A DNA stretch of 64,000 bases, from contig NZ_CP075338.1 in the NCBI RefSeq assembly GCF_023278365.1, positions 1,922,001 through 1,986,000 on the forward strand, given 5' to 3'. A program made the translations under genes and the position numbers. The DNA comes from Epilithonimonas zeae. Its GTDB lineage: Bacteria > Bacteroidota > Bacteroidia > Flavobacteriales > Weeksellaceae. How positions within the stretch are numbered: position 1 is the stretch's first letter; each line of letters begins with the position of its first letter. A model generated the notes under the pieces. The model was given only the letters and a program-made list of their open reading frames with translations, did no database searches and was not told where the DNA came from. Shown piece by piece: positions 1-57,548 of the stretch.

Positions 1-1023
1 GATTCTGAAACGAAATTTAAGCTTTTGGGCAGGGGTCTTGATATCAAATCTGCACTTTATATTGAATTAAAAATGCCGCAGGATTCTGTGCTACTTTATC
101 TGAAAAAATCAGCAGCTCAATATAAGCAAATAAAAAATACGTCGGAAAGAACAAACTTATTGAATGCTGCTTATATTAATATTAGCACTAGTTTCTTTAA
201 TGCAAAAAAATTGGATTCAGCGATTTATTATTCGCGTAAAGTAATTAACTCCAAGCAAATAAGTGAAGAATCAAAATCTCCTGTGTTTCAGACTTTAGCA
301 CAAATACATCGTGAAAAGAATAATTGGGACAGTGCATTTTATTATTATAAACAAGCCGAAGCAACATCGGTTAAACTGGGTAATCCTTTGGATTTAAAAT
401 CGATTTATCAAACACTTACCGAGATGTATGATAGATCTGGAGATAAGAAAAATGCTTTAATATATGCTAAAAAGTACGCCCACTTATCCGACAGTCTTAA
501 TGCTATTAATAAACAAAGTGTAGCAGTGGCTAATAAAAATATTAAAGAAAATCTTCAGGAAGAGAATTTATTCCAACAAAAACGCTTGTATTGGATTATA
601 GGAGGTATTCTTGTAATTCTGTTTTTTTTAGCATTACTGTCATTATATATTTTTAGATACTATACTAAAGAGAAAAAAAGTATTATTGAAGAAAAAACAA
701 AAGAACTAAAGGAACTTCATTCTAAAGTAAATGATTCCTTTGATGAGATAGTCTCTCTCGCAAAAAATAACGACAGCACTTTTTTAGGTCGTTTCAAAGA
801 AGTATATCCGGATTTCTGTAATAAAATTCAGAAGATATGCCCGGACATTATCAATTCTGAACTAACTTTTTGTGCCTATCTCAAGCTGAATTTTTCAACA
901 AAAGAAATTGCGACTTATACATTCACTGCAATTAAATCCGTTCAAAACAGGAAGAACCGCCTAAGAAAGAGACTGAATATCCCTTCTGATGAAGATATCT
1001 ATATCTGGATAGATAAACTATAA
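1..1023 (+). CDS. TPR-containing membrane regulator with C-terminal HTH (5' truncated)
   Basis: The reading frame is open to the left edge, so the true start lies outside the window; the first visible codons (frame 1) already read as TPR-like helices. Visible order: TPR-type repeats with the SAFYYYKQA/SAIYYSRK pattern (first ~170 residues), one membrane segment (about WIIGGILVILFFLALL), a short coiled coil (EEKTKELKELHSKV), then a LuxR-like helix-turn-helix end (STKEIATYTFTAIKSVQNRK, then RLRKRL). Proteins of this design are common in Bacteroidetes and are thought to be membrane-anchored transcription regulators that sense through the TPR part. The protein at 45829-47448 has the same architecture and a closely similar HTH end, so the two are paralogues. 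Ligand and targets are unknown. Confidence 0.85.
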   Translation, partial: DSETKFKLLGRGLDIKSALYIELKMPQDSVLLYLKKSAAQYKQIKNTSERTNLLNAAYINISTSFFNAKKLDSAIYYSRKVINSKQISEESKSPVFQTLAQIHREKNNWDSAFYYYKQAEATSVKLGNPLDLKSIYQTLTEMYDRSGDKKNALIYAKKYAHLSDSLNAINKQSVAVANKNIKENLQEENLFQQKRLYWIIGGILVILFFLALLSLYIFRYYTKEKKSIIEEKTKELKELHSKVNDSFDEIVSLAKNNDSTFLGRFKEVYPDFCNKIQKICPDIINSELTFCAYLKLNFSTKEIATYTFTAIKSVQNRKNRLRKRLNIPSDEDIYIWIDKL

Positions 1024-1058
1024 AAAACAGGCTCCATTGGAATGGAGCCCATTTTTAT
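1022..1058. terminator. Bidirectional rho-independent terminator
   Basis: A 9-bp perfect stem (ggctccatt/aatggagcc, 1030-1049) with a 2-base loop is flanked by an A-run on the left and a T-rich run on the right. It sits between two convergent genes and can end transcription from both sides. Confidence 0.8.
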
Positions 1059-2371
1059 TCTTTAATAATTTTTAAGGTGTGTTTTTGCCCGTCAAATATA
1101 CCTTTAAGAAAATAAGCGCCTTTTGGAAGCTTGTTGACATTAAGCTGTCTGCCTTTCATGCCTTTGACATCCAGAACTTTCTGACCAGAGGTATCATAAA
1201 TTTCTACATTAGTAATAATAGATGCTCCGCCAATATTCAGGACATCTTTTACTGGATTTGGATATATAGAAACAATTTTCTTATCGATATTATTAACAGC
1301 CATCACAGGATCTGGCAGCTCCAGACGAAAACCTATTGGAGATCCGTTTTTCTTCCCCCATCCTGTAATATATTTTCCATTGGGAGAAATTCCTGTTGGC
1401 AGATTAAAAGTCACATCTTGGGTATCAATTCCAAGGCTTTTTGCATAGGCAGTCAGCTCTACCCTTCCAGTCGTCGGAGTCCAGATGAAGCCCTCTCCTT
1501 TATCTGGTGCCGTACCGGTACCATCAAAAAGATTACGGAAATATCCCACTACCATGCTTCCATCGGCATTTACAGAAGTTGCTGCTCCAGAAAAACCTGT
1601 GTCTAGGCTCACGTCAGGATGATTGATTTTTATTACTCCAGTATCTTCGCTCCAGATGGTAGCATACCCCAGCAAACTGCTTCCTACTGCCCAAACTCCG
1701 TTATCTGAAACGTCTGAAACCTCATTCAAAGGTAAGCTACCGTATTCTGTTTCTTCCGTAACAAGAGTCTGGGTATTGTTTTTCCAAATAGCAAAGGTTC
1801 TTCCCATATCAGTATCCTGCCATCCGCCAACTACAGTTCCATCAGCGTTCACTGCGTTGGCTCTTGCACTATTACCTGCTACAGTACTGCCCATATCTAT
1901 AATACCAGTTTCGGCACTCCACTTTACCGGATGCGCTGTACCTCCAGAAATCCACCCCAACCCTACTACTGTCTTTCCGTCGGATGATATGCCATAAGCC
2001 GTGGTACTTGATCCTCCTGAATTCGCACCCAAATCTCCCAGATAAGTATGTGTCTGTGTTGCCACATCATACAGGGTCATTTCGTTAATATTGGTGCCAG
2101 GGTTGGTTATAGACATAGCAATCTTACTTCCGTCCGAGGAAATACTTCCTGTACCGGACGCAGGAATCCCGTTGGTAACATCTCCAATGTTTTTCAATCC
2201 CAATGATGGTGTCCACATAAAGAAGCTATTTGCATAGATGCCGGTCACTGTTCCCGTATTGGATACATTGTCGGGATGTACTTCAACTCCCAGATTGCTT
2301 ACCTGGGCATCAACCTGGTAAAAAAAAGCACCTATAGTAATAAACAGGGCAGAGATAATTTTTTTTGTCAT
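1055..2371 (-). CDS. Secreted HAF-repeat protein with T9SS type A sorting domain
   Basis: I place the start at the ATG at 2371 (MTKKIISALF), because it begins directly with a signal peptide ending at VDAQ; a longer in-frame extension to 2443 has no signal-like start. The middle holds repeated blocks such as AYGISSDGKTVVGLGW and NAVNADGTVVGGW, each containing an [SN]xDGxxVVG core, typical of the extracellular HAF-repeat family (probably a beta-propeller-like fold). The last ~75 residues (SIYPNPVKDVLNIGG, IYDTSGQKVL, LPKGAYFLKG) form a classic type A sorting domain, so the protein should be exported by the type IX system and anchored or released at the surface. The ligand or enzymatic activity is unknown. 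Confidence 0.85.
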   Translation of the reverse strand: MTKKIISALFITIGAFFYQVDAQVSNLGVEVHPDNVSNTGTVTGIYANSFFMWTPSLGLKNIGDVTNGIPASGTGSISSDGSKIAMSITNPGTNINEMTLYDVATQTHTYLGDLGANSGGSSTTAYGISSDGKTVVGLGWISGGTAHPVKWSAETGIIDMGSTVAGNSARANAVNADGTVVGGWQDTDMGRTFAIWKNNTQTLVTEETEYGSLPLNEVSDVSDNGVWAVGSSLLGYATIWSEDTGVIKINHPDVSLDTGFSGAATSVNADGSMVVGYFRNLFDGTGTAPDKGEGFIWTPTTGRVELTAYAKSLGIDTQDVTFNLPTGISPNGKYITGWGKKNGSPIGFRLELPDPVMAVNNIDKKIVSIYPNPVKDVLNIGGASIITNVEIYDTSGQKVLDVKGMKGRQLNVNKLPKGAYFLKGIFDGQKHTLKIIKE

Positions 2372-2781
2372 AATGATTAGATATTTAGCTTGAGTAATAT
2401 AATTTACCATTTTCCTATTGCAATCATAATATAAAACAATCAATACACATATACCCTTTACATACCTACATAGCTCAAATCACTATCTACAAAGAGTTTT
2501 TGGACTTCATCAAACATAACATTTCCTTTTAGGATTATAGAATATATAATCGGTCATCGCTTTTATATATCACAAAAATTCACATCAGGTACATAAAAGG
2601 TAGAGTGTTTTTTTGGCTATATAGCATTTATTATTCTCTTTGCAGCGCAAACACAGACACAAGTGATGTTACTGAACTTCTCAGTAGAGTACACATCGGG
2701 CTATTATGCTTTTCTTAATCTAAAATATTATAGCCCGGCTACCTACTTTCCTTCTCTTTTGTTGATGTTTTTGTTATACAA
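2372..2781. other. 410-nt gene-free stretch
   Basis: This is the divergent region between the HAF-repeat gene (leftwards) and the small secreted protein (rightwards), so it must hold both promoters. I found no convincing TAnnTTTG element, no repeat and no RNA gene in it. Confidence 0.5.
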
Positions 2782-3366
2782 ATGACATATCCAAAAACAA
2801 TAATGAGCAGCTCCTGTTTTCCAAAATCTCTTTGGAAGAGTCTCCTATTGTCATTCTTTCTATATTCTGCGCAAACATACGCCCAGACAGTTGTTACAGG
2901 GATGGAATACATTACCATCAGTGAGGATGCTGTCATATCTATACAAAATGAAAAACAATCGGATGATGATCATACAGTAGATGAGAAATGCAGTATTGAA
3001 AATGAGACCATAGCATCTGAAAAGTCTTATATCAAGGAAAAAATAGTTAAAACCCTGATAAAGCGCGCTGGATCATCCGGATCATCGGAAGATAAAGGTC
3101 AAAAAGCAGATAATGACTATGATCGTCAGAAAATAAAGATCAACAGCAGTCCTTATGATAATGACACTTCATTTTCAGTTTCATCAGGCAGATCATTTTT
3201 AGCCTGCAACGTAGATTTTCAATGGCGAGCCTCCGGCGTAGCAGAAAAAGTTTATTTCACGCTATTTTTTGTATGGGATATATTCCCAATTTTCGGAAAC
3301 CATCTTATTTCTTTTCTGGATAACACAAGCACTTATCATTCAGGAAGAGCACCTCCATATTGTTAG
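2782..3366 (+). CDS. Small secreted hypothetical protein
   Basis: Family not recognised. The 194-residue product has a hydrophobic N-terminal segment (KSLLLSFFLYSAQTYAQ) ending in a Bacteroidetes-style AQ cleavage site, followed by a polar, acidic and lysine-rich middle (about residues 45-130) and a short aromatic, hydrophobic stretch (VYFTLFFVWDIFPIF) before the C-terminal end RAPPYC. The start could also be the internal ATG at 2803. It lies upstream of, and on the same strand as, the HU-like gene and the giant secreted-protein gene, which suggests one accessory unit. The long open frame, the signal peptide and the lack of a better competing frame support a real gene. Confidence 0.6.
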   Translation: MTYPKTIMSSSCFPKSLWKSLLLSFFLYSAQTYAQTVVTGMEYITISEDAVISIQNEKQSDDDHTVDEKCSIENETIASEKSYIKEKIVKTLIKRAGSSGSSEDKGQKADNDYDRQKIKINSSPYDNDTSFSVSSGRSFLACNVDFQWRASGVAEKVYFTLFFVWDIFPIFGNHLISFLDNTSTYHSGRAPPYC

Positions 3367-3518
3367 ATTTTCTACAGTTATAACACCATTTTTACAAAAC
3401 TCAAATTATATCCAGACCATTCTGAAGCGTACTCTGTCAAAATAAACGTAATCATTATTGGAGTGCGCAGAGGGCTGGTGGAATGATCAACATATAACAC
3501 TTAAACACCTGATGAATT

Positions 3519-4250
3519 ATGGCAATATTACACAAAATCAAAGCCTATCTCTATGAGAACCTCCTTACAAAGGACAATCCTAATGATTATATTGCACGCA
3601 CTGTAAGCGAGCGTTCACTGAATGTTAAACAGATCTGTGAAGCCGCAGTCAACAGGGGCGGAGCAGACGTATCTGCTGCTGCTATGGAGCACGCCACCAG
3701 CCTGTTTCTGAAAGAAATGGCTTACCAGCTGTGCGATGGCTATTCTGTCAATACAGGCTATTTTACTGCCGGAACTCAGATCCGCGGGGTTTTTGACAGC
3801 CCTTCGGAAACCTTTAGCAGTGACAAGCACAATATCCTTTTTCAGTTTAACCAGGGAGAAAAGCTAAGAGCCGAGATCCCCAATATAGAAGTGAGTATAC
3901 TGGGGATTGCAGACAGTGCCTGTTCTATCTTACAGGTGACCGATGTCAAGAGTGGTGCTGTAAATGACCTTATCACGCCGGGCCGTAACCTCAAGATCTC
4001 CGGTAATAAGATAAAGGTAGTGGGAGATGATCCAAACAACGGGGTCTTTTTTGTGAATACCACTACACATGAGAGAGTCGTGGTAGAAAGCAATGACATA
4101 GTGACCAACAATCCCTCGGAGCTCATTATCGTAATACCCGATCTGGCATCCGGCACCTATACCCTGGAGGTACTGACACAGTTCTCCGGAACACAAATGC
4201 TGAAAGAGCCTCGCATGGCCAGCTTTGACAAGGTACTGACTGTACAGTAA
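3519..4250 (+). CDS. HU-like DNA-binding protein with Ig-like C-terminal domain (DUF4469 type)
   Basis: The N-terminal ~120 residues (HKIKAYLYENLLTKDNPNDY, SLNVKQICEAAVNRGGADVS) match the HU/IHF-like DNA-binding fold found in Bacteroidetes proteins of the HU-CCDC81 group. The remaining ~115 residues (LTPGRN-type LITPGRNLKISG, NPSELIIVIPDLASGTYTLE) match the Ig-like DUF4469 domain that usually follows it. No signal peptide is present, so the product should act in the cytoplasm on DNA. The gene looks richer in G and C than its neighbours. Directly downstream, a 23-bp palindromic array begins at 4251, immediately after the stop codon; binding of that array by this protein is an attractive but untested idea. 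Confidence 0.8.
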   Translation: MAILHKIKAYLYENLLTKDNPNDYIARTVSERSLNVKQICEAAVNRGGADVSAAAMEHATSLFLKEMAYQLCDGYSVNTGYFTAGTQIRGVFDSPSETFSSDKHNILFQFNQGEKLRAEIPNIEVSILGIADSACSILQVTDVKSGAVNDLITPGRNLKISGNKIKVVGDDPNNGVFFVNTTTHERVVVESNDIVTNNPSELIIVIPDLASGTYTLEVLTQFSGTQMLKEPRMASFDKVLTVQ

Positions 4251-4365
4251 GACCATAGCTGGAACAGGCTATCTGTTCCGGGCGGAACAGACCGTATGTC
4301 TCGGGCGGAACACGACAACTGTTCCGAACGGAACAGACGGTATGTTCTGAAAGATAAAAATAAGG
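4251..4365. repeat. 23-bp tandem palindromic array (iteron-like)
   Basis: Units TGTTCCGGGCGGAACA (4274), TGTCTCGGGCGGAACA (4297) and TGTTCCGAACGGAACA (4320) start exactly 23 bp apart. In the first and third, 8-bp arms CTGTTCCG/CGGAACAG flank a 2-base centre. Spacers share ACCGTATG/ACGGTATG. Weaker flanking units keep the phase: GGAACAG at 4261 matches GGAACAG at 4284, and TGTTCTG at 4343 follows the third unit by 23 bp. The array lies between the HU-like gene and the 5-kb secreted-protein gene. Confidence 0.85.
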
Positions 4366-4392
4366 TTTCCTAAGTAGACTATGCTTAGGAAA
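4366..4392. promoter_or_regulatory. 9-bp hairpin in the leader of the giant gene
   Basis: A perfect 9-bp inverted repeat (tttcctaag / cttaggaaa) with a 9-base loop follows the 23-bp array. No T-run follows it, so it is not a standard terminator. It could be a leader-RNA structure or a protein-binding dyad. Confidence 0.5.
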
Positions 4393-4413
4393 TCCAGAGA
4401 TTAAAACACAAAA

Positions 4414-4428
4414 TTTAGTTTAACTAAA
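4414..4428. promoter_or_regulatory. 15-bp dyad just before the start codon
   Basis: TTTAGTT-T-AACTAAA is a perfect dyad with one central base, ending 6 nt before the ATG at 4435. It would overlap the ribosome entry region of the giant gene and may affect its translation or transcription. Confidence 0.4.
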
Positions 4429-4434
4429 ATACTT

Positions 4435-7400
4435 ATGATAAAAAAAATTGACTTTTTAAAAACAAGTAAGCTTATTGCATTTGCATTGCTATTTCTTTGT
4501 GCCGTTGTTTTTGCTCAGGCGCCCGGCATACAATGGCAGAAGCTATATGGTGGATCATCTTATGAGTGGTTTTATAAGACCATACCAACTTCCGATGGCG
4601 GTTATATTGCCGTTGGACAAGCCGCTTCTACCGATGGAGATGTTACAGGAACTGGCTATACTAAACAAGATGCTTGGATCGTAAAAACTGATGCCTGTGG
4701 TAACAAACAATGGGATAAAATATTAGGCGGAGATGGAAGTGATGAGAATTTTTATGATATCAAGCAAACCAATGACGGAGGCTATATTGTAGTTGGGTCA
4801 TCTGATTCTTCAAATAATGGAACAGTCTCCGTGACTGGTAAAGGACTTACCGATGTATGGGTAGTCAAGCTTAATAGCTCGGGAGCAACACAATGGCAAA
4901 AGCTATATGGTGGTTCAAGGCCAGATCAAGGCTACTCCGTATCACAAACATTAGATGGAGGATATATTGTAGGAGGAACAACTCAATCGGTAGATGGAGA
5001 CCTTTCTGGCAATACAAGTGTTCTTGTAAAACCTGTAGTTATGAAATTGGATACGAACGGAAATTTAAATTGGGTAAAAACCTATATCTGGCAAAGCGAT
5101 TGGGAGATTTTATCTGAAATTATACAAACTGCGGACGGTGGATACATTTTTGTTGGAAATTCCTTTAATAGTGGTAATTCTGATGCCATTGCTTATAAAT
5201 TAAATTCAACCGGAGTTGTAACCCGGAAACAGCTATATGGCGGCAATGGTTATGATCGCTTTACTAATGTGAGAAGTACTTCAGATGGAGGATATATAGT
5301 AGCAGGCTATTCGGACACCTCAAATAATGGGAGTGTATCAGCCACTAATCATGGTGGATCAGACGTATGGCTTGTAAAGCTCACTTCAGCAGGTTCAAAG
5401 TCCTGGGATACACTATTAGGGGGTTCTGGAGAAGAAAAAATCACTAATTCTAATCTAACGATAGATACAGATGGAGGTTATGTCATCTGTTCATCATCTA
5501 CTTCTTCGAATAGTGGTAATGTAACAGATACTAATCATGGAGCGCAGGATGCTTGGGTATTTAAAACCAACTCGTCCGGTGTCATTCAATGGCAAAAACT
5601 TATTGGGGGGACTGCAGATGATCAATTATTTTCTATATATAATACGGCTAATAATAACTATATTTTAGCAGGTTACTCTGAGTCATCAGCAAGTGGCGAT
5701 ATAAAAGACACCAACAAAGGATCCTTAGACGCATGGCTATTAAAGTTGGGAGATGTTACGCCAACGCCTGTTATAACAACAACGTCAGCAACTTGTTTTT
5801 CAGCAGGTACAGCAACCATTAGCAATTATAATGCTTCTTATAGCTATACCTTCCTGCCTGTAGGACCAACTATCGGAACAAATGGTTTAATATCAGGAAT
5901 GGCAGTGGGCACAAACTACACTGTTACTGCAAGCGGAGGAAACTGTACTTCGGCAACCAGCGTTTCATTCAGTATTGCAGCGCAACTTAGCGGTGCATCC
6001 TGTAGTCCCTGTACATCCCAGCGTATTATCAATTCTTCATTAGTATATTCAGGTGAATATACCGGATGGACCTTAGCTAACACTGATGTGACCAGACCTT
6101 CAGGCAGCAATCAGGGGGTGAATTTCCAAAGAGATGGGCAGATTAATGATCTTACTCAAAATTTAACGAAGGTAAATCCTCAAGGCAACACTTCTCCTGT
6201 ATTTAACATCAAGATAGGACCTTATGATGCAGTGCCACAGGCAAGCAGTAATAAAGCATCTCTTGAATTTTACTACGATAATGTGTTATATATGCGAATA
6301 TCAACCACCAATGGAGTAACGACAGGAGGTGCCAATGTAAATTATTTCAATGGTGCAAGTGGGAATTATGCAACTAAAGTACCGATGAATACTTCTGGTG
6401 TGGGTGCTACTGTTTCCGCAACAGTTCAGCTTACTTTACCTGCTACAGTATCTAATTTTGGTCAGCTAAAGATACATTATGATGGTTCAGGTACAACCCC
6501 AGTAGATGACTTTTACATAGGAGAAGTTAGTCTGATAACAACAGTAGCTACTCCTGCCATCCCTACAGTAACAACTACTGTGGCCACCTGCTCGTCAGAC
6601 GGAACGGCAACTATAAGCAATTATAACCCTTCTTATACTTATACATTTACACCAACAGGTCCAACTGTGGGTCCAACTGGTTTAATATCTGGAATGATCA
6701 CAGGAACAAACTATATAGTAAAAGCAAGTATTGAAGGCTGTCAATCTTCTGCAAGTTCTTCGTTCAGTATTGCGGCATCGCTTAATTGCACATTTGTATG
6801 TAACACGAAATTCTATTTGTCACAATATCCTTTAGCAGGAACAACAACTCTGTATGAATTAGACAATACCACTAATCCTTTTACAATAACTTCTATAGGT
6901 GCTTCTCCAGCGGGTATGAAAGTAAATGGTATTGGCTACAATACAGTAGATAATTTGATCTATGGGATAAGAACCGACACTGGTTTTACGAACTATATGG
7001 TAAGGATAGACGCCAATGGAGTATTTACCAGCTTGGGTGCTGTGACTAATTTACCAACAGGTGGCTATAACTCTGGTGCATTTGATAACGGTGGAAATTA
7101 CTATTTACTTAATTCCGGGTCAACGAGGTTTTATAGAATAGATGTAACAACCAATACTGCTACATTGATTACACTTTCAAGGTCATTAAATGTGAACGAT
7201 ATTGTTTATGATAAAATAACAGGAATGTTTTTTGGCTACGAAGGAATATCAGGAGCTAATATATTAGTTTCTATTGACCCTGCCACCGGAACTGTTACCA
7301 ATATCGGAGCAAGCGGATTACCGGATGGTACTCTCGTAGGAGCCTTGTATGTCGATGCCTCTGGAGATATTTTCGGAAATGCAGATAATGGTTCAGGCTT

Positions 7401-9435
7401 TTATCAATTCAATAAAACTACAGGTAGAGCCGTGAAAATTTCCAACTCGATTGGTGCCAATGGAAACGATGGGACAAATTGCCCTGATGCGGTAATTACT
7501 TTCCCGGCAGATTTGAGCGTTACCAAAACAGATGGTAAGACCTCTTATATTCCTGGTACAACCAACACCTATACTATTGTAGTAAGCAATACCAATGGGC
7601 CATACGGTGTGCTTGGAGCTACGGTGTCGGATTCTTTGCCAGCCGGCATCCCTGCTGCTAATATGTTATATTCCGTGCCTGTACTCACAGGTGGTGCGAC
7701 CACAAGTATTACTGGTTCCCAAACGGGTGCTCTTAATGATGTGGTAGGTCTTCCTGTAGGCGCTACAATCACCTACACCATTACTATCAATGTCCCTGTG
7801 GCATATACCGGTAATCTTACCAATACTGTTACGGTAATTCCACCGGTAAACTCTTCAGATCCTACTCCGGGGAATAATACAGCAACAGATACGGATACTG
7901 AAATGTGGCCTACTTGTACTTTTGATAATACAAATGGCGGAAATACGACGCCTGTTCCAGTAGCAAAATCTAATATAAGTGCAAATGCCGCCCCTACTAT
8001 TACATATTTACAAAATGCCTCTGCTTCCGCATCCAGAACCAATGAATTTGATTTTGGCGGAGTAAATCTTACCAATTCTACAGGGAATACAATACCAAAT
8101 GTATTGATCGATATAAGTAAGTTAGGTTTCTGGACGCAGAATGTATCTGGAACTACTTTTAAAATATATGCATATAACCAAGCCAACCAAGCTTGGGAAG
8201 GGACTTTGGGTAATGGGCAGACCGCTTATTTCAAGATATTAGGTGTTTCAGTAAACGGTGCTCAAATAACAAATCCGAACATCAGGTTGCTTCCCGTCCA
8301 AAATTCTGCATCGGTAACAGGATATCATTTTGCTTCTACAAGTGATACCGTTTCTGACGTTGCGACGTCTTTTACAGATGGAGGCACAGGAACTAGTTAC
8401 TCTATTACTGGTTCTACGGTTTCTCTTCCTCAAAATCTGCCTGTAATAGATTTGGGAGCTTTAGCCAATGGATCTACGCTTACAAATGTTAAAATCAGAA
8501 TGGGATTGGTAATGCCGAATAATGCAGATGCCTGGGTAAACAATCCGGATACGGGAACAGGTGATATTGATTATTATGTATATGGGTTTGCGGATGTTTG
8601 GGGTACAGGTTACGATTTTGGAGATGCCCCATCAAGTTACGGGATAGCACAGCATGCTCCTTCATTATGTAGTCCGGCAATTTACATAGGACCAAACAGA
8701 CAGGATTATGAAAGTTCTGTTACAGTAAATACAACAGCTGATGCTGATGACCTGAATATGCCAAATTATGATGATGAGAACGATAGCCTACCTGATTTTT
8801 CAGCAGGTCAAACTTCATATTCTATTACTTTACCATATGTAAACAACGCTGCTTCCGGTACTGTAAGTGCTTGGATAGATTGGAATAACAACGGCGTTTT
8901 TGATGCTTCGGAACGGGCCAATACAAACATATCTACAGGAAGCGGAAATATAGTTCTTACTTGGAAAACCTCTGGAGCTGCAAGCGGAGAAGGGGTAATA
9001 CCATCCGGAATCACGACAGGGTATAAAATGGTGCGCACCCGTATTGGGACTATAAGTTCAGAAATATTGAGTGTGTCCGGCATAGCGAAAGATGGTGAGG
9101 TAGAAGACAGGCTTCTATTTGTTTCTGCATATTGCACCAAACCAGGAGATTTCACAACAGGAGGTACACCTACAAAAATAGGTATCACAGTTCAGGAAAA
9201 ACTTTCGGGTTGGCCAGAGTCTATTCCTAATGGTCATATAGCTTTGGAATCAAAAGAAAAAGGATTTGTGATTACGAGAGTTTCGCACGTGAGTACAACA
9301 CCGGATCTCACAAATGATTCTATCAAAGATCCTAAAGAGGGAATGCTGATCTATGACATTCAGGACAAATGTGTAAAATTATTCAATGGGATTACATGGA
9401 ATTGTATTCGTAGAACTTGTAATGACACTAATTAA
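4435..9435 (+). CDS. Giant secreted multidomain repeat protein (1,666 residues)
   Basis: The product starts with a signal peptide (LIAFALLFLCAVVFAQ). About residues 30-440 hold seven ~55-residue repeats with cores WQKLYGGS, DGGYIVVG and DVWVVKL, probably a beta-propeller. Two near-identical Ig-like repeats follow (ATCFSAGTATISNYNASYSY and ATCSSDGTATISNYNPSYTY), the first about residues 445-520, the second about 715-785. A DUF11-type domain (ADLSVTKTDGKTSYIPG) lies near 1025-1155 and a GEVED domain (FGDAPSSYG, WIDWNNNGVFDASE) near 1395-1560. The last ~40 residues (EGMLIYDIQDKCVKLFNG-TW) are not a standard YPNP sorting domain but a module also present in the next gene. It is most likely a surface adhesin or matrix protein; the partner is unknown. 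Confidence 0.85.
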   Translation: MIKKIDFLKTSKLIAFALLFLCAVVFAQAPGIQWQKLYGGSSYEWFYKTIPTSDGGYIAVGQAASTDGDVTGTGYTKQDAWIVKTDACGNKQWDKILGGDGSDENFYDIKQTNDGGYIVVGSSDSSNNGTVSVTGKGLTDVWVVKLNSSGATQWQKLYGGSRPDQGYSVSQTLDGGYIVGGTTQSVDGDLSGNTSVLVKPVVMKLDTNGNLNWVKTYIWQSDWEILSEIIQTADGGYIFVGNSFNSGNSDAIAYKLNSTGVVTRKQLYGGNGYDRFTNVRSTSDGGYIVAGYSDTSNNGSVSATNHGGSDVWLVKLTSAGSKSWDTLLGGSGEEKITNSNLTIDTDGGYVICSSSTSSNSGNVTDTNHGAQDAWVFKTNSSGVIQWQKLIGGTADDQLFSIYNTANNNYILAGYSESSASGDIKDTNKGSLDAWLLKLGDVTPTPVITTTSATCFSAGTATISNYNASYSYTFLPVGPTIGTNGLISGMAVGTNYTVTASGGNCTSATSVSFSIAAQLSGASCSPCTSQRIINSSLVYSGEYTGWTLANTDVTRPSGSNQGVNFQRDGQINDLTQNLTKVNPQGNTSPVFNIKIGPYDAVPQASSNKASLEFYYDNVLYMRISTTNGVTTGGANVNYFNGASGNYATKVPMNTSGVGATVSATVQLTLPATVSNFGQLKIHYDGSGTTPVDDFYIGEVSLITTVATPAIPTVTTTVATCSSDGTATISNYNPSYTYTFTPTGPTVGPTGLISGMITGTNYIVKASIEGCQSSASSSFSIAASLNCTFVCNTKFYLSQYPLAGTTTLYELDNTTNPFTITSIGASPAGMKVNGIGYNTVDNLIYGIRTDTGFTNYMVRIDANGVFTSLGAVTNLPTGGYNSGAFDNGGNYYLLNSGSTRFYRIDVTTNTATLITLSRSLNVNDIVYDKITGMFFGYEGISGANILVSIDPATGTVTNIGASGLPDGTLVGALYVDASGDIFGNADNGSGFYQFNKTTGRAVKISNSIGANGNDGTNCPDAVITFPADLSVTKTDGKTSYIPGTTNTYTIVVSNTNGPYGVLGATVSDSLPAGIPAANMLYSVPVLTGGATTSITGSQTGALNDVVGLPVGATITYTITINVPVAYTGNLTNTVTVIPPVNSSDPTPGNNTATDTDTEMWPTCTFDNTNGGNTTPVPVAKSNISANAAPTITYLQNASASASRTNEFDFGGVNLTNSTGNTIPNVLIDISKLGFWTQNVSGTTFKIYAYNQANQAWEGTLGNGQTAYFKILGVSVNGAQITNPNIRLLPVQNSASVTGYHFASTSDTVSDVATSFTDGGTGTSYSITGSTVSLPQNLPVIDLGALANGSTLTNVKIRMGLVMPNNADAWVNNPDTGTGDIDYYVYGFADVWGTGYDFGDAPSSYGIAQHAPSLCSPAIYIGPNRQDYESSVTVNTTADADDLNMPNYDDENDSLPDFSAGQTSYSITLPYVNNAASGTVSAWIDWNNNGVFDASERANTNISTGSGNIVLTWKTSGAASGEGVIPSGITTGYKMVRTRIGTISSEILSVSGIAKDGEVEDRLLFVSAYCTKPGDFTTGGTPTKIGITVQEKLSGWPESIPNGHIALESKEKGFVITRVSHVSTTPDLTNDSIKDPKEGMLIYDIQDKCVKLFNGITWNCIRRTCNDTN

Positions 9436-9449
9436 AAACGACATCAACA

Positions 9450-9983
9450 ATGAATTATAAAATAATAATCAATAGTCTAATACTTGTTTTGCTGGCAGAT
9501 TTTGCCAGCGGACAAGTCTCTATGGGAGGTAAACAAAGTGTAGAAGGAACAGCCACAATTCTGGATTTTAATAGCCAAACTGGTAATATAAAAGGAATAA
9601 TCCTTCCGGCAGTGGATGATATTTCCAAAGCATTGTCTTCTGACCCTGTGAGTAATAATGGTACATTTTTATTCAATAAAAGCAATCAAAAAGTTCAGGT
9701 CTACGAGAACAACGTATGGAAAGATCTTTCGGATGCCGGAAGCAGTAGTAATCTTGTTATTAACACTTCTGATGAGAAAACTGGAGGTGTGGTTATAGGT
9801 GCTTCAAGCAGTCCTGCAAAAGGGGTTCTTATCCTGGAATCGTCGGATAAGGCAATGATCTTACCAAGAATATCAGAACCGCATAAAAATGTTAAAAGCC
9901 CTTATCCGGGAATGATGTGTTTTGATACGGTAAGCAGAACACTTGCAGTATTTGATGGTGCAAAATGGAATTATTGGAATTAA
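9450..9983 (+). CDS. Small secreted protein sharing the C-terminal module of its neighbour
   Basis: The 177-residue product has a signal peptide (MNYKIIINSLILVLLADFASG, cut after GQ). Two internal blocks are visible, each pairing an ILPA/ILPRI core with a later G-x-x-F/C-FN/FD segment: first IKGIILPAVDD with NNGTFLFNKSNQKVQVYENN, then KAMILPRISEP with YPGMMCFDTVSRTLAVFDG. The final segment ends in KWNYWN and matches the end of the preceding giant protein in pattern (GMxxxD, x-V-x-x-F-x-G-x-x-W). It starts 14 nt after the giant gene and is surely co-transcribed. Such GxxxYNT..NGxxW modules occur in many Bacteroidetes surface proteins. I infer that it is a partner or accessory subunit of the giant protein. 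Confidence 0.75.
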   Translation: MNYKIIINSLILVLLADFASGQVSMGGKQSVEGTATILDFNSQTGNIKGIILPAVDDISKALSSDPVSNNGTFLFNKSNQKVQVYENNVWKDLSDAGSSSNLVINTSDEKTGGVVIGASSSPAKGVLILESSDKAMILPRISEPHKNVKSPYPGMMCFDTVSRTLAVFDGAKWNYWN

Positions 9984-10023
9984 CAATCTCTGATTTATAA
10001 AAGAATCCTAACGAAGTGTTTTG

Positions 10024-10052
10024 CTTGCGGGATCTTTTCCTGCAAGTTTTTT
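10024..10052 (+). terminator. Terminator after the giant-gene operon
   Basis: A 9-bp stem (cttgcggga/ttcctgcaag with one G-U pair) with a 5-base loop is followed by TTTTTT. It lies 40 nt past the stop codon at 9983. Confidence 0.75.
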
Positions 10053-10262
10053 GGCCGGGCAGTTTTTTAAAAACTAGATTTTATCATTGTCTATTTTTTT
10101 CTGTCTGGCTTTTTTTTATCATTTGATAATATGTTTTAACATCTTATATCTTATCCAAGTCTGATTGACCATTAAAAAGCTTATATAATTAATCAGTAAT
10201 AATACATACTAAATTTATTTTTCTTGTCGGAATTGACCATAACAGGCCGGCAAGTTTATTCG

Positions 10263-10312
10263 CCGGGCAGTTTACATCACTAACTTTCTTCATACTGCTG
10301 CCCGGTTTTTTT
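10263..10312 (+). terminator. Long-loop CCGGGCAG hairpin with T-run
   Basis: CCGGGCAG (10263-10270) pairs perfectly with CTGCCCGG (10298-10305) across a 27-base loop, and seven T follow. It is a second possible terminator, or part of the repeated element in this region. Confidence 0.55.
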
Positions 10313-10461
10313 ATAGTGATATGAAATTGCAATACAAATACTTTATCTATGGATACACAAATACAAAAAATAGATGCTGTGGTAAAACATTATTTGCAGA
10401 AAATCATACAAATATTCTGAAACTCATATTAGCGAATTAAAAGGATACTGATATCATAAAT

Positions 10462-10490
10462 AAAAGCGTTTCATAAGTGAGACGCTTTTT
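10462..10490. terminator. Terminator of the M28 peptidase gene
   Basis: AAAAGCGT..TCA / TGA..ACGCTTTT forms an ~11-bp stem with one G-U pair and a short loop, with A and T runs on both sides. It lies 11 nt past the stop codon of the leftward peptidase gene. Confidence 0.7.
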
Positions 10491-10500
10491 ACTTGTACAA

Positions 10501-12069
10501 TTAATAATCTTTACTGCTTCTTTTCGGTTCTTTCACTTCGGGCCATTTGGTCACAGCACCTTTATCATCATTAGGCATCACGCGCTTTTCACGGCTTGTG
10601 AACTCTGGATCTTCTGACGCCATATAAGCTAAAGTCGCAGTCAGAATCACGTTATTTTTCAACTCATCGAAAATGATTTTGTCATACGTATCTTTGGTCG
10701 TGTGCCAAGTGTAACCGAAATACCCCCAATTAAGTGAACTCAACGAAAATCCTGGAACGCCCGCTGCTACGAAAGAAGCGTGGTCGGAACCACCTCCACC
10801 GGGAATTCCTGGAAAAGTACTTTTGATCTGGTCTTTTACTTTTTTAGGTGCTGCATCCAACCATCTCCCGATATAAGCATAAGAATCTTTGAAACCCTGT
10901 CCGCTGATGTCCACTACTCTTCCAGTTCCATTATCCTGATTGAAAACTGCCTGCACGCCTTTGATAATTTCCGGATTGTCGGCTACAAAACCTCTTGAAC
11001 CATTCAGTCCTTGTTCCTCGCTTCCCCAAAGTCCAACAACAATGGTACGCTTTGGATTGGGATAATATTTTTTAAGGATTCTCATCGTTTCCAGCATCGT
11101 CAAAGTTCCTGTTCCGTTATCTGTTGCCCCTTGAGCACCGTCCCAGGAATCAAGGTGAGCGGAAAGAATCACATATTCGTTTGGTTTTTCTGAACCTTTT
11201 ATCATTCCGATGGTGTTGAAAGATTTGGCTTCCGGAAGAACTTTGGATTGTGCATCCACTTTGATTCTCGGTTTTGCGCCTTTTTCTGCCATTCTGTAGA
11301 GCATTCCGTAATCTTCCAAATCGATATCGAACATTGGAATTGATTTCGTTTTCGCCCCGAAAATACGATTGGTACTATGGATTCCTGTCCAGTTGGAAAT
11401 GGCAATTCCTGCAGCTCCCGCTTTTTCAAAAGCTTCCGGTAATGTTGTGTTATCATATCCGATAGTCTTAATATAATCTGCGAAATCCTTTTTAGCCTGT
11501 TCTTTCTCGGCTTTCAGTTTTTCGTACAATTCCGGTGTTGCAAATTCTTTGATTTGTTCATCAGAACGACCGATTTTATGATATTGCGCCATCAAAACGA
11601 TTTTACCTTTCACCGACGGCAGCCATTTATCAAATTCGGTTTTGGAAGATACTTTCGGAAGAATCACCACTTCTGCTTCTACCGCTTTTTTGGTTGCCGG
11701 ACTCCACGCTAATTGGGTTGCAGATAATGTTTTAGTTCTTGGATAAACCAAATCTACGTGTGTTGTTCCGCGCTGCCAGCCTTTCCACGTTCCGAATTGC
11801 TGAAGATTAGCATCGATTCCCCAAGATTTCAATTTATCGGCTGTGTAATTGTTAGCGGCTAACATCTCTGGTGTCCCGACAAGACGCGGTCCGATGCCGT
11901 CTAGAAGTTCGTAAGCCATATCTTCCAATTGGGAATTGTTATTGACTTCATTCACAAAACTTTGAACGATTGGATTAAGTTTTTCTTCAGATTTAGTTTG
12001 AGCGTTGGTTAAGGTGATTTGAGCTGCAAAGAAAACTGCAGACATTGTTAAAAATGAGTTTCTCTTCAT
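10501..12069 (-). CDS. M28 family zinc metallopeptidase (secreted)
   Basis: The 522-residue protein has a signal peptide (FLTMSAVFFAAQITLTNAQ). The family's two-zinc ligands are visible in order: H305 (SAHLDSWD), D317 (GATDNG), E351/E352 (GSEEQG), D379 (NQDNG) and H456 (YTWHTTKD). Residues ~110-280 form the PA-type insert domain (AGAAGIAISNW). The protein resembles carboxypeptidase Q/aminopeptidase-type M28 enzymes and should release amino acids from peptides in the periplasm or outside the cell. It is a single-gene unit with its own terminator. The exact specificity cannot be read from sequence. Confidence 0.92.
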   Translation of the reverse strand: MKRNSFLTMSAVFFAAQITLTNAQTKSEEKLNPIVQSFVNEVNNNSQLEDMAYELLDGIGPRLVGTPEMLAANNYTADKLKSWGIDANLQQFGTWKGWQRGTTHVDLVYPRTKTLSATQLAWSPATKKAVEAEVVILPKVSSKTEFDKWLPSVKGKIVLMAQYHKIGRSDEQIKEFATPELYEKLKAEKEQAKKDFADYIKTIGYDNTTLPEAFEKAGAAGIAISNWTGIHSTNRIFGAKTKSIPMFDIDLEDYGMLYRMAEKGAKPRIKVDAQSKVLPEAKSFNTIGMIKGSEKPNEYVILSAHLDSWDGAQGATDNGTGTLTMLETMRILKKYYPNPKRTIVVGLWGSEEQGLNGSRGFVADNPEIIKGVQAVFNQDNGTGRVVDISGQGFKDSYAYIGRWLDAAPKKVKDQIKSTFPGIPGGGGSDHASFVAAGVPGFSLSSLNWGYFGYTWHTTKDTYDKIIFDELKNNVILTATLAYMASEDPEFTSREKRVMPNDDKGAVTKWPEVKEPKRSSKDY

Positions 12070-56425: not shown

Positions 56426-57548
56426 GATGATAGCATTGAGAATTTTTTTGGTGATGATTTTATCCATTTCAACAAGTTTGGTTTTTGCTCAGGAAGGCAA
56501 TAAAGAAATTGATAGTCTGATTGGCGCAGCCAATTCGTTTATCTTCAAAAATCCACAGAAGACTATTGAGATTGGTAAGGACATTTTGAAGAAAAAAAAC
56601 ATTGAATCTTCTTACAAAATCTCGTCTTATATCTTGATTTCCAACGGCTATTCTGGCTTGAATGATTATCAAAAATCCATTGAATTCGCTTTGAAAGCCA
56701 ACGAATTATCTGAACAAACTAAAGATATTGCCAACCAAATCAGGACTTTGGGACTCATTGGAAATCAATACATTCGGATAGAAATGCGCGATGAAGCCTG
56801 GCATTATCTCGACAAAGCGGATAAATTGTCGCAAACGGTTTCTTTACCTGAATCCAAAAAATATTTGATTGGAAATATCAATCTCCTGAAAGGGTTTCTG
56901 TACAAAAGAAGTCTGGATTGTGGTTATGCGATTAAACATTTTAACAAAGCGATTAACGAGTTCAAAAAAGATAAAGACAACGGATTTGCGAAAGCGAATC
57001 TCGGGCAGGCTTATAACCAGAAAGCTTATTGCTACCTCAACATCAACAAAGATTCTGCGCAGGTCAGTTTTGAAAATGGATTGGCTGACGCCAGAAAAAA
57101 CGGCGCAAAATCTCTGGAATGTAATGCAATGATTGGATTGTCCGAAATCAAAAGCTCCAGAAAAGATTTTGACAGTTCTAATAAAACGTTGTTATCAGCA
57201 CTTCCACTTTCTAAAGAAGCCCAGCAAATCGAAATGGAAAGCAGGATTTACAAACTCCTGGCAGAAAATTTCATTGAACTTAATGATTTTGAAAATCATA
57301 AGAAATATCAAAAACTGTTTGATTCTACTCAATCCAAATTTGCTCTGGAAGATGTAAAATCTGTCAACGAATTAATTAAGAAACGAAACGAATTCAAGCA
57401 GAAAAATTTTGAATCCGAACAAAAAAAATATGTGATTATCATTTATGTTCTTCTTGGTATTTTAGTTTTATCAGGTGCAATTTTATCTTATTTTTTGGTC
57501 AATAAGTCGAAAAAAATCAATCAAAACATCAAAAATAAAATTTCTTAA
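56418..57548 (+). CDS. TPR-membrane protein without a DNA-binding domain
   Basis: The 376-residue product has a signal segment (LVMILSISTSLVFAQ), TPR repeats across residues ~30-310 (YQKSIEFALKANELSEQTKD, GYAIKHFNKAINEFKKDKDN) and one membrane segment (YVIIIYVLLGILVLSGAILS) with a short, basic tail (NKSKKINQNIKNKIS). The layout matches the TPR-membrane half of the AraC neighbour, but the HTH part is missing. The 8-nt overlap with the AraC gene suggests translational coupling and perhaps a heteromeric complex. Loss of an HTH by truncation is the alternative; no HTH remnant is seen downstream to 57696. Confidence 0.8.
   Translation: MNKMIALRIFLVMILSISTSLVFAQEGNKEIDSLIGAANSFIFKNPQKTIEIGKDILKKKNIESSYKISSYILISNGYSGLNDYQKSIEFALKANELSEQTKDIANQIRTLGLIGNQYIRIEMRDEAWHYLDKADKLSQTVSLPESKKYLIGNINLLKGFLYKRSLDCGYAIKHFNKAINEFKKDKDNGFAKANLGQAYNQKAYCYLNINKDSAQVSFENGLADARKNGAKSLECNAMIGLSEIKSSRKDFDSSNKTLLSALPLSKEAQQIEMESRIYKLLAENFIELNDFENHKKYQKLFDSTQSKFALEDVKSVNELIKKRNEFKQKNFESEQKKYVIIIYVLLGILVLSGAILSYFLVNKSKKINQNIKNKIS

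Follow-up and report, generated by a model that had tools for sequence, protein, structure and literature searches.

In the 64-kb stretch of DNA analysed here (the window), a phased array of 23-bp palindromic units lies directly behind a gene for an HU-like protein with a DUF4469 domain. We propose, with a probability of about 0.8, that each HU-DUF4469 protein recognises its own array, so that the array would be the cognate site of the protein whose gene directly precedes it. The proposal is supported by the phase of the units, their position behind the gene, a dyad symmetry without an RNA signature and a covariation between the array and one loop of the protein. The phased array itself is a general feature of the HU-DUF4469 gene family. 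Table 1 collects the features of the locus in the window.

Table 1. Features of the HU-DUF4469 locus, in window positions
Feature	Position	Strand	Basis or remark
Upstream ORF, 194 aa, N-terminal hydrophobic stretch by eye	2782..3366	+	cluster recurs upstream in two relatives
HU-DUF4469 gene	3519..4250	+	both Pfam domains; homologue of PDB 4fmr
Codons of the variable last DUF4469 hairpin loop, residues 221-231	4179..4211	+	residues 222-226 are proposed to confer specificity
23-bp phased palindromic array, four units	4261..4348		sequence; two relatives have an array at homologous positions
First CG-NN-CG centre between units	4279..4284		next two centres 4302-4307 and 4325-4330
Separate hairpin 3' of the array, outside the phased units	4364..4395 (about)	+	similar stretch in relative G010
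Downstream 1666-aa protein, signal-like N-terminus (DUF6923, DUF11, GEVED)	4435..9435	+	ORF, Pfam

The phased array and its gene family

The initial annotation had described three palindromes placed exactly 23 bp apart, and they were confirmed with their starts at 4274 (TGTTCC-GGGC-GGAACA), 4297 (TGTCTC-GGGC-GGAACA) and 4320 (TGTTCC-GAAC-GGAACA). Read on the other dyad, the array consists of four units of the form GGAACA-N7-TGTTCC (4261-4279, 4284-4302, 4307-4325 and 4330-4348), the second and the fourth being imperfect, and the first unit is separated by a gap of 10 bases from the stop codon of the HU gene at 4250. The identity at lag 23 was 30/46, whereas the highest score among 5000 first-order Markov shuffles of 4251-4365 was 28. 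Furthermore, at any period from 12 to 40, at least 30/46 was found at just two sites of the 64-kb window, the array (period 23) and a site at 57366 (period 21). By eye, the array is present in the window genome and in the relatives G007 and G010, the copy in G010 having three units only.

Some familiar kinds of repeat were considered for these units. An intrinsic terminator was rejected because, as read from the sequence, a T run is absent after all four units, and a CRISPR array because the 23-bp units are contiguous, without spacers. The Rfam search of window positions 1-12000 gave two matches, both under their gathering scores.

Regarding the protein, the HU-like DNA-binding domain PF14848 covers residues 7-129 (Pfam E 4.7e-39; 133.7 bits, curated cut-off 30) and the Ig-like DUF4469 domain PF14734 covers residues 137-233 (E 4.5e-30; 104 bits, cut-off 22.6), which places it in the HU-DUF4469 (PF14848/PF14734) family. 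The solved homologue with an HU plus Ig structure is 4fmr_A (profile E 4.3e-36, Foldseek E 2e-22), that is BVU_2165 of Bacteroides vulgatus, which has the same two domains over nearly its full length and is listed as a putative DNA-binding protein. An AlphaFold run on 61 rows gave a pLDDT of 85 and a pTM of 0.60, the five models spanning 85 to 65, and in this model the variable loop connects the last two Ig-like strands, 212-220 and 232-242. The model fits the whole chain of 4fmr poorly (TM 0.47, rmsd 13.7), so either the two domains are arranged differently or their arrangement is uncertain. Among the 50 Foldseek matches listed, none was an Ig-fold transcription factor.

The PF14734 profile matched 8 of the 23 genomes searched in the genus, 28 of 246 in the family, 14 of 395 in the class (10 of them over the cut-off) and 14 of 395 in the phylum; a single genome had as many as 12 matches. 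The first survey comprised 105 loci, near-duplicates and partial genes counted in. In the 250 bp after the stop codon, with periods of 18 to 30, 47 of the 105 HU flanks scored at least 30/46, as did 4 of the 580 other ORF ends at the same loci, and the best period was 23 in 94 of the 105 loci. The recurrence of phased palindromes behind HU/DUF4469 genes of other genomes, which the initial annotation had suggested looking for, was thus found. It had named GTTCCG/CGGAAC palindromes; the unit sequence varies from array to array.

A further set was drawn from 80 named loci, 52 of which were used, the other 28 being in already-used genomes; seven of the 52 were dropped because they came from genomes of the first set, which left 45 loci. 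The best period was 23 in 42 of these 45, and 36 scored at least 30/46. Within a more distant group (20 of 33 loci), 11 loci scored at least 30, the best period being 23 in 10 and 22 in 8, and among plasmid- or phage-labelled records (8 of 9 matches) the best period was 23 in five, with scores of 35, 40, 36, 34 and 27. Behind some HU-DUF4469 genes no period-23 array was found, for example at L095, L101, L103, L168, L190 and L257.

Several other observations were made at these loci. About 150-190 bp past the HU stop codon, L095 has by eye a stretch resembling the 3'-end of a tRNA or tmRNA. The HU-DUF4469 gene of L007/L137 (G016:C2:65827) contains an in-frame TGA and the array behind it is still preserved, L176 and L177 are truncated copies, and the window genome has HU-HIG-like frames with interrupting stop codons at G000:C1:34239-34539 and 3440536-3440826.

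Proposed half-sites in the array and the loop that covaries with them

The phase and the dyad symmetry are constant between arrays, whereas the sequence of the unit varies. We found that 57 of 81 arrays were above the 95th percentile of symmetry to unrelated arrays. The dyad that falls between bases was flanked most often by CG (55 of 121 arrays) and next by CA (11); this count is unselected, while an earlier CG register had been picked by CG content and is biased. For 90 arrays in the CG register, the arm beside the CG had 1.2-1.55 bits at offsets 3-8 within arrays and 0.01-0.29 bits across arrays, the register being chosen by CG.

Palindromic units may act in DNA or in RNA, and in the second case the array would form tandem hairpins in the 3'-end of the HU transcript, bound by the HU-like protein. 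The strand from 4245 to 4434 does fold far better than shuffles (z -7.7), a figure that includes the separate hairpin 3' of the array, to which a stretch of G010, and none of G007, is similar. A precedent for HU, RNA and REP elements together also exists in naRNA4 from REP325 of Escherichia coli, as described in the available part of PMC6907758. However, when the pairing of arms from the same unit was compared with that of arms from shuffled units in 90 arrays, the difference was +0.09 of nine pairs at the better dyad, itself selected for pairing, and -0.09 at the other dyad, so compensatory pairing was absent. Nor was there an excess of G-U in the same arrays, with 180 GU against 222 AC mismatches. 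Both results imply half-sites that conform to one consensus throughout an array, which is the pattern expected where a protein binds DNA. Furthermore, several small-genome relatives have, by eye, a terminator-like hairpin with a T run between the stop codon and the array. We dropped RNA as the main reading because, convincing as the fold energy is, the covariation and G-U tests were empty, and we consider it very improbable. These comparisons favour arms that would be DNA half-sites instead of RNA hairpins. Each 23-bp unit would then be made of two facing half-sites, the orientation alternating about every 11.5 bp, and a half-site would consist of a variable arm, about six bases long, and a CG beside one of the dyads that is often constant.

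Two Chryseobacterium genomes, probably of C. taichungense and C. taeanense, have 23 copies, and 22 of these were compared, the truncated L176 being omitted. Their array class, as judged by eye, tracks the last 30 residues of DUF4469 and not overall protein identity. We computed the partial correlation between the identity of five-residue windows and the similarity of the arrays, the rest of the protein being held constant; of the 92 family-level loci, the 78 whose array was usable entered this analysis. The peak was at residues 222-226, with r 0.33 between genomes (2782 pairs), 0.19 between genera (2197 pairs) and 0.71 within the same genome (221 pairs), and none of 2000 within-genome permutations matched these values in any of the three comparisons. 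The five residues nearest the array gave 0.07, -0.01 and 0.39 respectively, and therefore the covariation is not simply strongest beside the array. The four cross-genus pairs with an identical five-residue window had a mean array similarity of 7.64, no higher in effect than the 7.6 of pairs sharing nothing, and this counts against the relation.

The relation was followed in the further set, at the 43 of 45 loci with an array score of at least 25. When each locus was paired with the old locus nearest in the loop, the mean array similarity was 10.02, against 8.83 for the nearest in the body of the protein and 8.17 for a random one (Wilcoxon p 0.003 and 0.0001 respectively). The partners nearest in the loop ranked in the top 6% of array similarity for 21 of the 43 arrays and those nearest in the body for 10. 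The prediction failed, with a rank under the median, in 12 of the 43 (L270, L264, L245, L236, L248, L265, L263, L260, L258, L269, L249 and L234). Within the further set the partial r was 0.61 over 903 pairs, again with none of 2000 permutations matching it, whereas the identity of the rest of the protein predicted the array poorly (r 0.13).

Certain loops and arms could be matched by eye: i) loops of the form [YF]A[VI]G[ST][LMV]L occur with ACAA(A)..(T)TTGT at loci of Tannerella, Porphyromonas, Prevotellaceae and Weeksellaceae; ii) the loop GGN[TS]KQLL occurs with GTATA..TATAC; iii) the loop F[SA]GSS occurs with TCAG..CTGA. Furthermore, among 67 arrays in the CG register, an A at offset 8 was found in 21 of 28 arrays when the first loop residue is Y and in 4 of 35 when it is F (Fisher 3e-7, uncorrected for descent). 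The Fisher and permutation values overstate the evidence, because arrays and proteins share descent.

It could be argued that the relation reflects physical linkage only, the end of the gene and the array being inherited or exchanged together without any reading. The loop is within about 100 bp of the array, the last residues correlate within the genome too, as seen above, and the HU gene with its array is exchangeable as a block, since a match common to L158 and L159 (among the pairs listed) runs from the leader of the HU gene exactly to the array end, where the homology stops. We compared third codon positions in 22 hand-picked pairs, 21 of them distinct. Their identity was 0.15-0.65 over the last 30 codons and 0.22-0.56 over the body, being higher at the end in 12 of the 21 pairs, which would fit linkage, and lower in 9; with this division, recent joint transfer is not evident. 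Against linkage alone are also the peak at residues 222-226 and not at the last residues, the recurrence of the relation between orders, where third codon positions have mostly diverged, its recurrence in the separately gathered set, and the poor prediction from the rest of the protein there. We regard it as improbable that linkage is all.

On these sequence comparisons, the variable arm covaries with residues 222-226, across genera as well as in the further set. If the array is the cognate site of the protein, the variable last hairpin loop of the Ig-like DUF4469 domain would read the variable arm, and the rest of the half-site would fall to some conserved region of the protein, possibly its HU domain. 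Gene and array would form a self-addressed pair, and paralogues in one genome would often have different addresses.

Neighbouring genes, arrays without a gene and exchange

The initial annotation had also suggested that the HU-like protein binds the array and controls the giant gene behind it. The first half of this agrees with an array that follows the gene family and covaries with the loop, but control of the downstream gene did not hold as a rule, as the next gene was on the same strand at 49 loci of the first survey and on the opposite strand at 51. With the downstream strand random, we rejected the array as promoter of the giant gene as a general rule. The genes that follow are, moreover, spread over many clusters. 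The narrower reading, an operator or leader element for the 5-kb surface-protein gene, does have its position in the window and several neighbourhoods on its side. A gene of the same cluster as the downstream gene of the window also follows the array in two relatives, the downstream gene is on the same strand at 30 loci and on the opposite strand at 8 in the Bacteroidales-rich further set, and fimbrillin or leucine-rich-repeat genes follow HU gene plus array in Parabacteroides and Treponema records. We judge this operator reading unlikely overall. The array might act on the next gene at the window locus or in the Bacteroidales-rich set as a local possibility, and the 1666-aa downstream protein is best taken as a neighbour with, at most, a putative link to the system.

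On the upstream side, the gene was on the same strand in 89 of 98 cases of the first survey. At 58 of 101 loci, the gene directly upstream is on the same strand and belongs to a family in which the N-terminus is constant and signal-like and the C-terminus varies, secretion being judged by eye. The Pfam scan of 72 of the 83 upstream proteins (E <= 0.01; 25 of 44 families listed) gave Fib_succ_major 10 times, Fibrinogen_C 5 times and C-type lectin twice. The upstream gene of the further set was on the same strand in 20 of 29 cases, and by eye mostly outside the signal-like family. No Pfam family matched the 194-aa ORF of the window, and in G007 a secreted-looking cluster-1 gene sits between the homologue of this ORF and the HU gene. 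A second cognate site upstream of the operons was searched for and none was found, the mean z being 0.5 (upstream) and 0.9 (downstream); these z values are inflated, in the direction of finding a site, because the own matrices were used in 23 rotations and the shuffled ones in 6, and we give them no weight as evidence. As a separate observation, shared-cluster ORFs downstream of L098, L104 and L117 suggest a tandem repeat array, possibly CRISPR-like, the ORF of L098 having the repeated peptide VNTLQSESSPN.

Regarding sites away from HU genes, the motif has two exact matches in the window genome, both inside the array, which is the only place where it is in tandem. With one mismatch there are nine sites, one in the array and eight single ones elsewhere (reversed-pattern control, 1), and these eight could be chance or lone trans sites. 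In 360 kb of the contig of one relative, the period-23 sites were three HU loci and a low-complexity G/T-rich stretch at 168105, in a scan that would miss weak arrays and in which other periods gave similar counts (up to 3).

Some T-class and A-class arrays of the two Chryseobacterium genomes have no DUF4469 gene beside them. L284 (about 5006, G171:C20:21506) and L285 (about 4952, G156:C21:33952) are by eye composites of the T with the N class and follow the same 530-aa gene in two species, and L286 (about 5065, G156:C23:155365) is by eye a composite of T with A. L295 (about 4745, G156:C15:83745) and L296 (about 4906, C21:262406) are intergenic A-class arrays with no HU-DUF4469 gene near. These orphan arrays may be trans targets or remnants of lost genes. 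The N-class pattern occurred at 99 and 124 places and its reversed control at 89 and 101, so this search was uninformative; the search with the A-class pattern (6 and 13, against 16 and 9) was informative via tandem sites only. Near-identical short tandem ORFs, probably an intergenic repeat element, were also seen beside orphan arrays, at 5227-5696 of L284 and 3984-4717 of L285.

The suggestion that the array marks a mobile or replicative element fared weakly. The HU gene plus array can act as an exchanged block, as at L158/L159, but mobility genes are irregular neighbours, with a probable transposase cluster at 7 of 101 loci and an integrase upstream in one of six plasmid records. The phage and plasmid matches (two phage-labelled and seven plasmid records) are of distant relatives only, and a phage or plasmid origin was rejected because they are confined to these.

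Partition centromeres and plasmid iterons likewise are phased arrays adjoining the gene of the small protein that binds them, and the array could in principle have served a former plasmid or island as partition centromere or as iteron origin. The adjoining gene for a small DNA-binding protein, the block behaviour and the presence on plasmid-labelled records would fit. Nevertheless, five of the seven plasmid records are from Parabacteroides distasonis and may be chromosomal contigs, the four fetched ones being of one strain with very many 'plasmids'. Unlike centromeres and iterons, the family has palindromic 23-bp units and many copies per genome, and no ParA-like NTPase or replication initiator is among the families listed (25 of 44) for the 72 upstream proteins. 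With as many as 12 copies in one genome, this origin appears very improbable.

Relation to known systems and possible role

The usual description of HU-type proteins is that they bind DNA with little sequence preference, and their HU/IHF clades were reportedly surveyed by Burroughs and co-workers in 2017. An Ig-like fold contacting DNA is known from the eukaryotic transcription factors p53, Rel and Runt, and the proposed reading of DNA by an Ig-like loop would resemble them as an analogy of principle only, the HU-DUF4469 proteins being bacterial and fused to HU, with a hypervariable loop. In a literature search that covered few subscription journals, we found neither an array, a cognate site nor loop specificity for HU-DUF4469 proteins or 4fmr, and nothing on DUF4469 by name.

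The HU protein of E. coli with naRNA4/REP325 is likewise an HU-type protein with a palindromic repeat. However, according to the available part of PMC6907758 the REP325 repeat works as RNA, whereas the symmetry in the window family carries no RNA signature and each protein has its own repeat sequence. Both PF14848 and PF14734 are reported for TDE_2259 of Treponema denticola in the accessible portion of PMC12724145; its locus number adjoins that of the surface antigen TDE_2258 (BspA/LrrA), and in a trtA mutant both fall by about 5 log2 units. That portion treats TDE_2259 as a non-specific HU-like protein and does not mention any array next to it. The regulator TDE_0127, described in PMC7586716, belongs to another family.

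Beyond the recognition of the array we infer physical binding, assembly and an effect on expression. Several copies of the protein would come together on the array and form a local nucleoprotein complex, bending or bridging the DNA, and this complex would set or insulate the expression of the surface-protein locus of the gene. Such assembly and control of surface-protein loci is our best guess for the role, and we offer it tentatively, at somewhat less than even odds. At a similar level, still short of an even chance, we would place a polymorphic DNA address system in Bacteroidota and some spirochaetes, with private arrays, orphan arrays that join surface-protein loci and a readable residue-to-base code. 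The system would be new in kind, and we call it so because no known kind that we compared shares its anatomy; filed more strictly, it could be a variety of paralogue-specific operators.

If this is true, a genome would carry several distinct address pairs, and chosen loci could be clustered, insulated or switched by them. A large and mostly unstudied branch of HU proteins seems to be sequence-specific via its Ig-like domain, with the answer lying beside each gene. The many natural pairs of loop and site are perhaps enough for a recognition code that would predict the sites of family members, and proteins of the family could possibly be borrowed as programmable DNA readers. This would also give a handle on why HU-DUF4469 genes often adjoin variable surface proteins.
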